NCBI RefSeq assembly: GCF_014472395.1
Contig: NZ_JACSZW010000009.1
Span: 1-64,000 of the forward strand
DNA: 64,000 bases
Origin: Pedobacter sp. N36a
Lineage (GTDB): Bacteria > Bacteroidota > Bacteroidia > Sphingobacteriales > Sphingobacteriaceae
Direction of reading: 5' to 3'
Below the pieces are notes generated by a model that saw only the letters and a program-made list of their open reading frames with translations, had not been told where the DNA came from and did not search any database. Shown here piece after piece: positions 11,909-43,012 of this stretch. Made by a program: the position numbers and the translations under genes. The number at the start of each line of letters is the position of its first letter. Position 1 is the stretch's first letter.

Positions 11909-13489
11909 ATGAAAAAATGCTTGATCATCCTTTTTGTCTGCTTTAGCAGTTTCGGTTTTGCACAGGATAAATATTGGCAGCAAGAAGTCAGTTATAAAAT
12001 AGATGTCGCCTTAAATGACCAGGCAAAGACCCTTGCAGGCTCAGAACAGATCGTTTACAAAAATAATTCTCCCAGCACCCTCGATTTCATCTGGTTCCAC
12101 ATCTGGCCAAATGCCTATAAGCAGGAATCTACCGCACTGTTCCAGCAATTAAAAAATGATACCAGTAGAACTAAGAAAATGGAAAAATATACTTTCGGCA
12201 GTATCGATGGGTTAAATTTTAAAGTGAATGGGCAAACTGCGGTTACAGAAGCGCATCCAAATCCGCAATATATTGATGTGATTAAAGTAAAATTACCGAC
12301 TCCTTTAAAACCTGGAGAATCTGTCAATATCAGTACAGACTTCAATGTAAAACTACCTTCCTATTTCTCGAGATCCGGTTTTGCCGATGGAGAGTTTATG
12401 ATTTGTCAGTGGTATCCAAAACCTGCAGTATTTGATAAAAGTGGCTGGCATGAATTCCCATATCTCGATATGGGAGAGTTTTATAGTGAATATGCTGCCT
12501 TTAAGGTCAACATTACCCTACCTTCAGACTATGTAGTGGGGGCTACGGGAGTATTACAGACTGCCGATGAACTGGCCCTGTATAAAAAATTGGGTGCCGC
12601 AAACGCCGCAAACAGGACCGGGAAGCCGGAGCTTTATAAATCGATCCACAAGTCTCCAACCAAGACGTTAACGTATGAAATTAATAATGTGCCTGATTTT
12701 GCCTGGTTTGCTGCAAAGAATTTTGTGATCCAGTATGATACCGCGCAGCTGGCTTCCGGAAAAGTGGTGGATGCTTTTACCTATTACCACAATAAAAAAC
12801 CTACTTTATGGACCAACAGTATCGATTATACCAAAGATGCGGTAAAGCATTACAGCAAATGGATTGGTGAATATGAATATCCCGTGGTTCAAGTGGTTGA
12901 AGGACCGGTTAACAATTCAAGTGGTGGAATGGAGTACCCAACCATTACTTTAATTACCAGTCCAGATGCTAAAAAAGAAACTTTAGATGCGGTCATTACG
13001 CATGAAGTAGGACACAATTGGTTCATGAGTATGCTGGGCAGCAATGAACGTCAGCATGCCTGGCTGGATGAAGGGTTGAATACTTATTTTCAATTCAGAT
13101 ATGAAGCGGAAAAATATCGCTCCAATAGTCTGTTTGGAGATGCCATTCCTGAACAAGTAAAGAAAATGCCGGAAAAAGAATTTCTATCCAGTATCTATAA
13201 TGCCCTGGCCTCAATTCCAATGAAAGCAGCCATTGAAACTCCTTCTGATAAATTTAGCAGTTCCGATGAATATAGCATGGCTTCCTATGTGAAAACCGCT
13301 TTATGGCTATTCATTTTGGAAAATGAAGTAGGAAGAGAAAAGATGGACAAAGCGTTTCAATATTATTTCAGTTTATGGAAGAATAAGCACCCTCAGCCAG
13401 AAGATTTGAAAGCGGCATTTGAAACCTCTTTAGGAGTGAATTTAGAGGCTTATTTTAAGCTGATTAACAAAGAGGGAGGTTTTAAATAG
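11909..13489 (+). CDS. M1 family zinc metallopeptidase
   Basis: 526 aa with signal peptide MKKCLIILFVCFSSFGFAQ, so it is exported. The zinc site is HEVGH at residues 365-369, with the third ligand Glu388 in WLDEGLNTYF, exactly the HExxH-x18-E spacing of M1 (gluzincin) aminopeptidases. GGMEYP upstream corresponds to the family's G-x-M-E-N substrate-binding motif. It is shorter than classical aminopeptidase N, ending soon after the catalytic domain, as in many Bacteroidetes paralogues. It probably trims peptides in the periplasm. Confidence 0.93.
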   Translation: MKKCLIILFVCFSSFGFAQDKYWQQEVSYKIDVALNDQAKTLAGSEQIVYKNNSPSTLDFIWFHIWPNAYKQESTALFQQLKNDTSRTKKMEKYTFGSIDGLNFKVNGQTAVTEAHPNPQYIDVIKVKLPTPLKPGESVNISTDFNVKLPSYFSRSGFADGEFMICQWYPKPAVFDKSGWHEFPYLDMGEFYSEYAAFKVNITLPSDYVVGATGVLQTADELALYKKLGAANAANRTGKPELYKSIHKSPTKTLTYEINNVPDFAWFAAKNFVIQYDTAQLASGKVVDAFTYYHNKKPTLWTNSIDYTKDAVKHYSKWIGEYEYPVVQVVEGPVNNSSGGMEYPTITLITSPDAKKETLDAVITHEVGHNWFMSMLGSNERQHAWLDEGLNTYFQFRYEAEKYRSNSLFGDAIPEQVKKMPEKEFLSSIYNALASIPMKAAIETPSDKFSSSDEYSMASYVKTALWLFILENEVGREKMDKAFQYYFSLWKNKHPQPEDLKAAFETSLGVNLEAYFKLINKEGGFK

Positions 13490-13493
13490 TATT

Positions 13494-13560
13494 TTATCCA
13501 CATGGTTGTTCACAGTGTTATCCACCGGTTATCCACTCTTTATCCACAGGGTTCTCCACA
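13494..13560 (+). promoter_or_regulatory. array of six DnaA-box-like sites, 11-12 bp apart (candidate origin or DnaA-binding locus)
   Basis: Six 9-mers in one orientation start at 13494 (TTATCCACA), 13506 (TTGTTCACA), 13518 (TTATCCACC), 13529 (TTATCCACT), 13540 (TTATCCACA) and 13552 (TTCTCCACA). Two are perfect matches to the general DnaA box TTATCCACA; the rest differ by one or two bases. Steps are 12, 12, 11, 11 and 12 bp, about one helical turn. The array sits in the 140-bp gap between the M1 peptidase and the MocR gene, with AT-rich sequence beside it. It may be oriC, a titration site, or a DnaA-controlled promoter; no dnaA gene is in the window. Confidence 0.7.
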
Positions 13561-13591
13561 TTTTCAAGGGTGAATATAGCCTATAAACAGC

Positions 13592-13618
13592 ACCATCAAA
13601 ATGAGTAAATTTGATGGT
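13592..13618. promoter_or_regulatory. inverted repeat overlapping the MocR promoter (candidate operator)
   Basis: Perfect 9-bp arms ACCATCAAA and TTTGATGGT separated by 9 bp, ending 11 bp before the MocR start codon. A -7-type TAAATTTG (13606-13613) overlaps the right arm. A GntR/MocR protein bound here would block transcription, so autoregulation is a reasonable inference. Confidence 0.55.
13606..13613 (+). promoter_or_regulatory. candidate -7 box (TAAATTTG) of the MocR gene
   Basis: A perfect TAnnTTTG match 16 bp before the ATG at 13630, embedded in the inverted repeat. No -33 TTG is seen at the usual distance. Confidence 0.4.
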
Positions 13619-13629
13619 TAAATTTTCCT

Positions 13630-15063
13630 ATGGACAAGTATAGATATGAAGAGATCTCTGCCGAGATTGCAATTAACATTACCGAAGGAAGGTTAAAACC
13701 AGGACATAAACTGCCTTCGGTTAGAAGCTTAAAACAGCAATATAAAGCAGGTTTAAGTACCATTAATAAAGCCTATGAGCTTTTAATTATTATGGGGCTG
13801 GTAGAATGCGTCCCCAAATCAGGATATTATGTGGCATTGCGGAAAGTAAACACTGGCGCTGTGGTCACTAACCCCCCGACCCAAACCAGGCTCAGAGATG
13901 AGCTGTTTAGAAACAATTTGCTAGCCATCACAGCGAGCATAAATCCAGGGCATCGCCACAGTGTCAGTGAATTTAATGTAGCTGCTCCGGATGATTTATT
14001 TATCCCTCAGAAAATGATCCTGAGAAATATGCAGCAGGTGATCCGCGAAAAGGGAACAAAACTGCTCAGATACTATCCTTCCAATGGCTCTGAGTCGCTG
14101 AAAGAGCAGATTACAAAACACTCGGCCTTAAACCATGGAACTTTTGATAGCGAAGGCTTGATCATTACTGATGGGGCATTACAAGCATTTTATATCGCCC
14201 TGGCCGCTGTAACCACTGCGGGTGATGCGGTGGCGATTGAAAGCCCATGTGTGTTTTCAATGTTGCAGGTACTGACTACTTTAAAGCTTAAAATTGTAGA
14301 GATTCCAGTGTTGAATACTGATGGTTTTGACCTGGGTTTTCTGGAGGAAACCCTAAAGACGATTCCTATAAAAGCGATTGCACTTACCCCAAATTTTCAT
14401 AATCCTACGGGCTTCCTGATGTCTGATGAGCACAAATTGAGGTTACTGGAAATTGCAAAAATGCGAGACATTCCCATCATTGAAAATGATGTTTATGGGG
14501 ACCTTAATTTTGGAGACCACCGTCCGGGAAACATCAGCTCCATGGACGGCAGTGGATTGGTCATGACCTTTTCCTCTTTTTCTAAAACCCTGGCCTCAGG
14601 AATTCGTTTAGGCTGGCTGTTTACGGGAAGGTTTTTTAAAGAAGCGGAACAAATCAAGTTTTCCCTGGGCAGTACTGTAGCTCCAGTGTACCAGGAAACC
14701 ATGCTGAACATTTTATCAACCAACAGCTACGAACGTCATATTCGTTCTTTCCGTATGAAATTGGCTAGCCAGTGTTACCAGACCATGGAGCTGATTTCTA
14801 CTCATTTTCCAGAGAAAACACTGATATCTACCCCAAAAGGAGGCTATAGCATCTGGCTTAAAATGGAAAGAGCTATTGATATGGTAAAGTTTCATTACCA
14901 TTGCGAGGAAATTGGCGTGCGCTTCACTCCCGGTTATACTTTTTCCTACAGCAATGCCTTCGAGCAATATTTTAGAATCGTTTTTGCAATGAAGTATACT
15001 CCTTCCAGAGAGAATGTACTGAAACAGGCAGGGTTATTTGCAGGAAGTGTCATTCGGGAATAA
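13630..15063 (+). CDS. MocR-type (GntR-aminotransferase fusion) transcriptional regulator
   Basis: 477 aa. The N-terminal winged helix is GntR-like (GRLKPGHKLPSVRSLKQQY, then LSTINKAYELL, residues 18-60). A fold-type I aminotransferase domain follows: TPNFHNPTG, IENDVYGDLNF and the PLP-lysine motif SSFSKTLASGIRLGW with Lys319. MocR regulators sense PLP-linked or amine ligands and usually control neighbouring genes. The GNAT gene just downstream on the same strand is a candidate partner. The region upstream carries an inverted repeat over a -7 box, and the DnaA-box array lies directly before it. Confidence 0.93.
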   Translation: MDKYRYEEISAEIAINITEGRLKPGHKLPSVRSLKQQYKAGLSTINKAYELLIIMGLVECVPKSGYYVALRKVNTGAVVTNPPTQTRLRDELFRNNLLAITASINPGHRHSVSEFNVAAPDDLFIPQKMILRNMQQVIREKGTKLLRYYPSNGSESLKEQITKHSALNHGTFDSEGLIITDGALQAFYIALAAVTTAGDAVAIESPCVFSMLQVLTTLKLKIVEIPVLNTDGFDLGFLEETLKTIPIKAIALTPNFHNPTGFLMSDEHKLRLLEIAKMRDIPIIENDVYGDLNFGDHRPGNISSMDGSGLVMTFSSFSKTLASGIRLGWLFTGRFFKEAEQIKFSLGSTVAPVYQETMLNILSTNSYERHIRSFRMKLASQCYQTMELISTHFPEKTLISTPKGGYSIWLKMERAIDMVKFHYHCEEIGVRFTPGYTFSYSNAFEQYFRIVFAMKYTPSRENVLKQAGLFAGSVIRE

Positions 15064-42985: not shown

Positions 42986-43012
42986 TTATCCACAATTAGC
43001 GATTTTTCCACA
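42986..43012 (+). promoter_or_regulatory. DnaA box(es) between ftsA and ftsZ
   Basis: A perfect TTATCCACA at 42986-42994 and a second site with one mismatch, TTTTCCACA, at 43004-43012, in the same orientation with an 18-bp step. They lie in the only sizeable gap of the late cluster, directly before ftsZ. DnaA control of ftsZ is known in Caulobacter; here it is an inference. Confidence 0.5.

Follow-up and report, generated by a model that had tools for sequence, protein, structure and literature searches.

Introduction

DnaA sinks and DnaA-controlling sites are known mainly from Escherichia coli and Bacillus subtilis; our literature searches found no paper on either in the Bacteroidetes. In B. 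subtilis, deletion of six DnaA-box clusters outside the origin is reported to lead to early initiation, and these clusters (DBCs) are proposed to lower the amount of free DnaA (PMC5295017). The datA locus of E. coli, which is described as having two consensus boxes and four boxes with one mismatch, binds DnaA and is also proposed to lower free DnaA (PMC5835720). At E. coli oriC, according to the account in PMC6727663, low-affinity sites on the same strand and 2 bp apart bind DnaA-ATP cooperatively and are filled from strong sites.

Here we analysed an array of DnaA-box-like 9-mers in a Pedobacter genome (83 contigs, 5.25 Mb). The window, i.e. the whole stretch of DNA that was analysed, comprises 64 kb from the start of contig C83 (214,468 bp). 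The array and its neighbours are, in window coordinates:

11909..13489, + strand: M1 peptidase gene (PF01433), upstream of the array
13494..13560, + strand: phased array of six DnaA-box-like 9-mers, with the same register in P. polysacchareus and Pedobacter sp. PLR
13494..13502, + strand: box 1, exact TTATCCACA, identical in P. polysacchareus and PLR
13506..13514, + strand: box 2, TTGTTCACA, identical in P. polysacchareus and PLR
13518..13526, + strand: box 3, TTATCCACC
13529..13537, + strand: box 4, TTATCCACT
13540..13548, + strand: box 5, exact TTATCCACA, identical in P. polysacchareus and PLR
13552..13560, + strand: box 6, TTCTCCACA
13592..13618, unstranded: inverted repeat ACCATCAAA-9 nt-TTTGATGGT, between the array and the MocR gene
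13630..15063, + strand: MocR-type regulator gene (GntR and aminotransferase domains; PF00392, PF00155), 69 bp downstream of the array

By analogy, the array is best read as a variant of extra-origin DnaA-box clusters, comparable to those of B. subtilis or to datA. As in the case reported from B. subtilis, one chromosome would carry multiple DnaA-box clusters away from its origin; in contrast, the Pedobacter arrays, known here from sequence alone, lie on one strand, are helically phased, have up to 18 boxes and include one in coding sequence. Like datA as described, the locus is non-coding and holds several DnaA boxes away from oriC. The datA locus is, however, reported to be IHF-dependent and to promote DnaA-ATP hydrolysis, and our comparison with it is one of boxes alone. 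The resemblance to the low-affinity arrays of E. coli oriC, as these are described, is in weak boxes of one orientation near strong anchors, the Pedobacter spacers being 2-3 bp and the exact boxes being 1 and 5; unlike that origin, which is presented as two facing arrays, the Pedobacter array has all its boxes pointing one way and does not appear to be at an origin.

Results

An ordered array in a short intergenic gap

The original prediction of six one-strand TTATCCACA-like 9-mers at 13494-13560 was confirmed, as were their steps of 12, 12, 11, 11 and 12 bp (spacers of 3, 3, 2, 2 and 3 bp) and the claim that two are exact and the others have one or two mismatches (three with one, one with two). 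The short intergenic gap said to hold them runs from 13490 to 13629, between the stop codon of the M1 peptidase gene (which ends at 13489) and the ATG of the MocR-type gene at 13630. The AT-rich surroundings also claimed were found only in part: the MocR-side flank is mildly AT-rich (0.65-0.72 AT in 40-bp windows, against a window mean of 0.594), whilst the array itself is mostly 0.50-0.57. The inverted repeat at 13592-13618 may terminate the upstream gene or serve as an operator for the MocR promoter. The sequence TAAATTTG at 13606, which we take to fit a Bacteroidetes -7 element, overlaps this repeat, and the aligned P. polysacchareus gap also holds a similar inverted repeat. Searches of the window and of two further loci described below (the nrd array and the nadA-nadB gap) gave no match in Rfam.

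To gauge chance, we estimated the number of arrays of such quality (5 mismatches over all 54 box letters, each step being free to be 11 or 12) expected on both strands of 5.25 Mb; with independent letters, a crude model, this is about 2e-15. The window contains 24 boxes with at most one mismatch where 19.7 are expected, a count reached in 19 of 100 shuffles, and genome-wide the exact box occurs 64 times and its reversed pattern 46 times. Individual boxes show no clear excess; what stands out is their arrangement in an ordered array.

Elsewhere in the window, a box before ftsZ (42986) had been called single, but a second, TTTTCCACA, lies at 43004. The TTATCCACA and TTTTCCACA of this ftsA-ftsZ gap (42986-43012) are identical in P. 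polysacchareus; in a more distant genome, G064, TTTTCCACA occurs three times and the sites are arranged differently.

The array is not at the skew switch

In its first choice, the original prediction took the array for oriC, the origin of the chromosome. A cluster of six DnaA boxes in an intergenic gap speaks for this, and distance from dnaA is no obstacle, as oriC need not adjoin dnaA in the Bacteroidetes. The reading is nevertheless hardly credible, being contradicted by GC skew in P. polysacchareus, by the absence of the array in P. gandavensis and in an outgroup genome (G074) and by the position of the skew sign change in this genome. On the 927,569-bp contig of P. polysacchareus, where 20 stretches were sampled and averages obtained from 18, strand-corrected third-position GC skew was positive in 17/18, on both sides of the array (229 kb); the exception was -0.020 at 100-120 kb. 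On C83 itself, 31 of the 41 5-kb bins were positive, nine negative and one zero, with no minimum at 13.5 kb (the contig end is only 13.5 kb from the array). The skew sign was constant on four other contigs of the genome (C11, 8/8 negative; C44, 4/4 negative; C22, 5/5 positive; C66, 3/3 positive) and positive in 17/20 averages on C33. It flips on C76, from -0.123 (20-40 kb) and -0.044 (125-145 kb) to +0.070 (290-310 kb). Skew, which the original prediction had proposed as a check in its cumulative form, does not put the array at a negative-to-positive switch. A simple pattern, which is a weak test, found no DnaA-trio-like run beside the array.

A better origin candidate lies on C76:

C76:134375-134726, between divergent genes: nadA-nadB gap, candidate origin, 75% AT, within the middle skew stretch of C76

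This gap contains exact TTATCCACA together with TTATCCATA and TTATCCACT. A 901-bp segment that contains the gap and the adjoining coding ends is 97-98% identical in P. polysacchareus (G403), G444, G331 and G269 and 89-90% identical in four more genomes, an unusual degree of conservation; for comparison, the M1 and MocR genes differ from those of P. polysacchareus or PLR at 35-52% of their fourfold sites. We consider the gap the best origin candidate, though an unproven one: the skew flip on C76 is bracketed only between 40 and 290 kb, and the local cumulative skew over a 20-kb stretch dips before the gap and drops still lower at the right end of that stretch, with no clean single minimum. The gap boxes are not kept in G064, whose nadA-nadB gap has no box with at most one mismatch.

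Sampled skew was too noisy to name an origin in G064 or G019. Around nadA-nadB of G064 (3.267 Mb) it ran -0.141, -0.068 and +0.013 and was positive again at 3.06-3.20 Mb; in G019, where nadA-nadB lies at 4.92 Mb, it was -0.180 at 4.90 Mb and +0.061 at 5.25 Mb, but +0.084 at 4.60 Mb. We also rejected as oriC a cluster at C33:335126-335458, given the mostly positive skew of that contig on both sides. It comprises eight boxes with at most one mismatch, on both strands, within 330 bp, beside an ORF of 210 aa that looks nitroreductase-like by eye. A similar palindromic pair in G019 and G006 was set aside as a hairpin between genes without shared neighbours. This hairpin, AAGTTATCCACA-TAAAA/TTTTA-TGTGGATAACTT (L093 near 7058, L094 near 6336), puts two DnaA boxes opposite each other in a stem that resembles a terminator.

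Box letters are conserved where the array is kept

The MocR protein is 91% identical to that of P. polysacchareus, 81% to that of PLR and 80% to that of P. gandavensis. The P. polysacchareus array has eight boxes in register, with one 23-bp unit duplicated, and that of PLR has six, at steps of 12, 12, 11, 11 and 13. The M1-MocR pair is kept without the array in P. gandavensis, where the gap is 27 bp, and in the outgroup G074, so that the array is present in 3/5 of the genomes in which the pair was seen. The other M1 orthologues fetched have no neighbouring MocR gene in the loci examined, and the 260 bp downstream of eleven of them contained no box with at most one mismatch. In the complete genome G444, which is close to this one, the strict triple-box pattern was unmatched at the M1-MocR site.

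A tree of M1 and MocR pairs PLR with P. gandavensis (98/98) and P. polysacchareus with this genome (100/100); on this topology, the array must have been lost once, in P. gandavensis, or gained twice. The common register of the arrays makes the loss likelier. With that loss, and with no strict-pattern match at the site in G444, the array would be dispensable.

Against PLR, 4/54 box letters have changed, compared with 159/306 fourfold-degenerate sites of the two flanking genes (p 8e-11), and 4/10 aligned spacer letters differ. Against P. polysacchareus the figures are 1/54 or 2/54 box letters, depending on which last box is taken as homologous (2 if its sixth), and 123/356 fourfold-degenerate sites (p 2e-8 or 2e-7). 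When the 20 boxes from all three species are compared, positions 1, 2, 4, 6, 7 and 8 are invariant and all changes fall at 3, 5 and 9. These comparisons indicate that the boxes are under purifying selection. The distance from the array to the M1 stop codon hardly varies, but that to the MocR start is 69 bp here and 111 bp in PLR, which speaks against a fixed promoter geometry.

A family of arrays in Pedobacter

A genome-wide search for box clusters, another check suggested with the original prediction, revealed other arrays of similar or larger size, so that one chromosome carries more than one such array outside oriC; as noted above, single exact boxes were unremarkable. A pattern of three phased boxes gave 26 matches in 10/399 family genomes, against seven in four genomes for a reversed control, and 19/26 were in this genome, P. 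polysacchareus and G331. One array, at C33:321023-321076, has five boxes at steps of 11, 12, 11 and 11; it has a counterpart in P. polysacchareus and a pattern-based one in G444. DnaA-box-like repeats also occur in the coding end of a topoisomerase IV/gyrase A-family gene (C1:137058; L012:9016-9171), and they are kept in P. polysacchareus, G331, G269 and G444. On the G444 chromosome (about 6.1 Mb), three further arrays were located relative to the nadA-nadB gap; their distances from it, about 0.5, 0.7 and 0.9 Mb (lengths rounded), would suit an early-copied sink, but three sites are few. Within the genomes searched, the arrays are best read as restricted to a Pedobacter clade, and the window array is of greater interest for its family than on its own.

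The largest array (C33:501033-501322; L014:11033-11322) has 18 boxes on one strand in about 290 bp. It lies between the gene for the ribonucleotide reductase large subunit, upstream, and a 67-aa cysteine-rich ORF, ending 85 bp upstream of this small gene. Its steps are mostly multiples of about 11 bp and their pattern is largely kept in the six genomes compared, all of which share the first seven steps of 22, 11, 22, 21, 10, 21 and 22 (an overlapping weak site in two of the six being counted within the 22). Exact TTATCCACA boxes open the array and recur in its middle in 6/6 genomes, and they close it in 5/6, an anchoring at both ends and in the middle that resembles the strong anchor boxes of E. 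coli oriC. Between this genome and P. polysacchareus, the TT...ACA core has changed at 1/90 letters, positions 3-6 at 13/72, the spacers at 31/128 and the flanks at 12/114; the other two pairs among this genome, P. polysacchareus and G444 differ at 2/90 and 1/90 core letters. The slowness of the flanks, 12/114 against 31/128 in the spacers, is part of the core-spacer contrast. By BLAST, the array portion of this locus (the nrd array) is present in 10/109 Pedobacter genomes, most other matches being to the small downstream gene only. The triple-box patterns caught it only partly.

Two dnaA genes

The genome has two full-length dnaA genes with 84% identity, at C11:218464-219894 and C44:5823-7247. 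The two proteins share their domain composition, and the C-terminal stretch that reads the box has identical residues in both; their P-loops differ (GASGLGKTH in the C11 protein, GGVGLGKTH in the C44 protein). An exact TTATCCACA box lies 173 or 175 bp upstream of each start. Two or three dnaA genes occur in 16/60 Pedobacter genomes, including this one, G074 and G075. A link between the arrays and the second dnaA is at most tentative: many multi-dnaA genomes, among them G012, G042, G048 and G063, gave no match to the nrd array part.

Discussion

We put at about 0.72 the probability that the locus is a chromosomal DnaA-binding array outside oriC. The original prediction had offered a DnaA-titrating or DnaA-controlled site as its alternative to oriC, and of its proposals this is the one that we retain, on the grounds of the purifying selection on the boxes and the family of similar arrays; from the sequence we infer that DnaA is the protein that binds, that it forms an oligomer and that the array serves as a sink. 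If the array works like E. coli oriC, DnaA would be anchored and seeded at the exact boxes 1 and 5, and further molecules would add head to tail along the weaker boxes; these share one orientation and recur roughly once per helical turn, which would keep the added molecules on the same face of the DNA. An array holding several DnaA molecules could, with the other arrays, lower free DnaA until oriC fires. A second and compatible use would be DnaA-dependent control of the MocR gene 69 bp further on. As to the main role, we tentatively lean towards the sink, at a little under even odds; control of MocR is possible in that place, at somewhat longer odds.

Were regulation of MocR the sole role, the array would be an operator, controlled by DnaA or by MocR itself and without effect on replication. 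The position upstream of the MocR ATG fits this, DnaA reportedly acts as a transcription factor in other bacteria, and the nrd array likewise precedes its small cysteine-rich gene. We consider it unlikely, as it is the distance to the M1 stop codon and not that to MocR which is kept among species, the P. gandavensis MocR gene does with a 27-bp gap and no array, and another array sits within the topoisomerase IV/gyrase A-family coding sequence.

That P. gandavensis has lost the array cleanly and that P. polysacchareus has duplicated a 23-bp unit count against a DnaA-binding array, as they resemble the behaviour of a drifting minisatellite, here with an 11-12-bp unit whose likeness to DnaA boxes would be accidental. 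Drift alone does not readily account for selection on box letters, for changes confined to positions 3, 5 and 9, for an nrd core that is kept while its spacers diverge or for a shared consensus that is exactly TTATCCACA, and we judge the minisatellite very unlikely. It is still harder to credit that the boxes serve another DNA-binding protein with a TTnTnCACA-like site. Motif resemblance is the sole tie of the array to DnaA, and the nrd boxes are variable at their third and fifth letters; yet the commonest letter at each position yields the DnaA box, and the same 9-mer lies upstream of both dnaA genes and in the nadA-nadB gap.

A more far-reaching scheme, which we think quite improbable, builds on the DnaA-binding array: replication timing in this Pedobacter clade would be set by dispersed, phased, one-strand arrays on which the C11 DnaA (GASGLGKTH) forms filaments on double-stranded DNA, with a division of labour between an initiator and a regulator DnaA, the nrd array as the chief sensor and the window array as a more recent satellite that the cell can do without.

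For a field built mainly on E. coli and B. subtilis, these arrays, in which as many as 18 weak boxes are lined up with exact ones as anchors, and which are apparently selected, gained and lost among species and found beside duplicated dnaA genes, would provide a natural comparison. They could be used to test whether one-strand boxes spaced by one helical turn load DnaA filaments on double-stranded DNA and time initiation.
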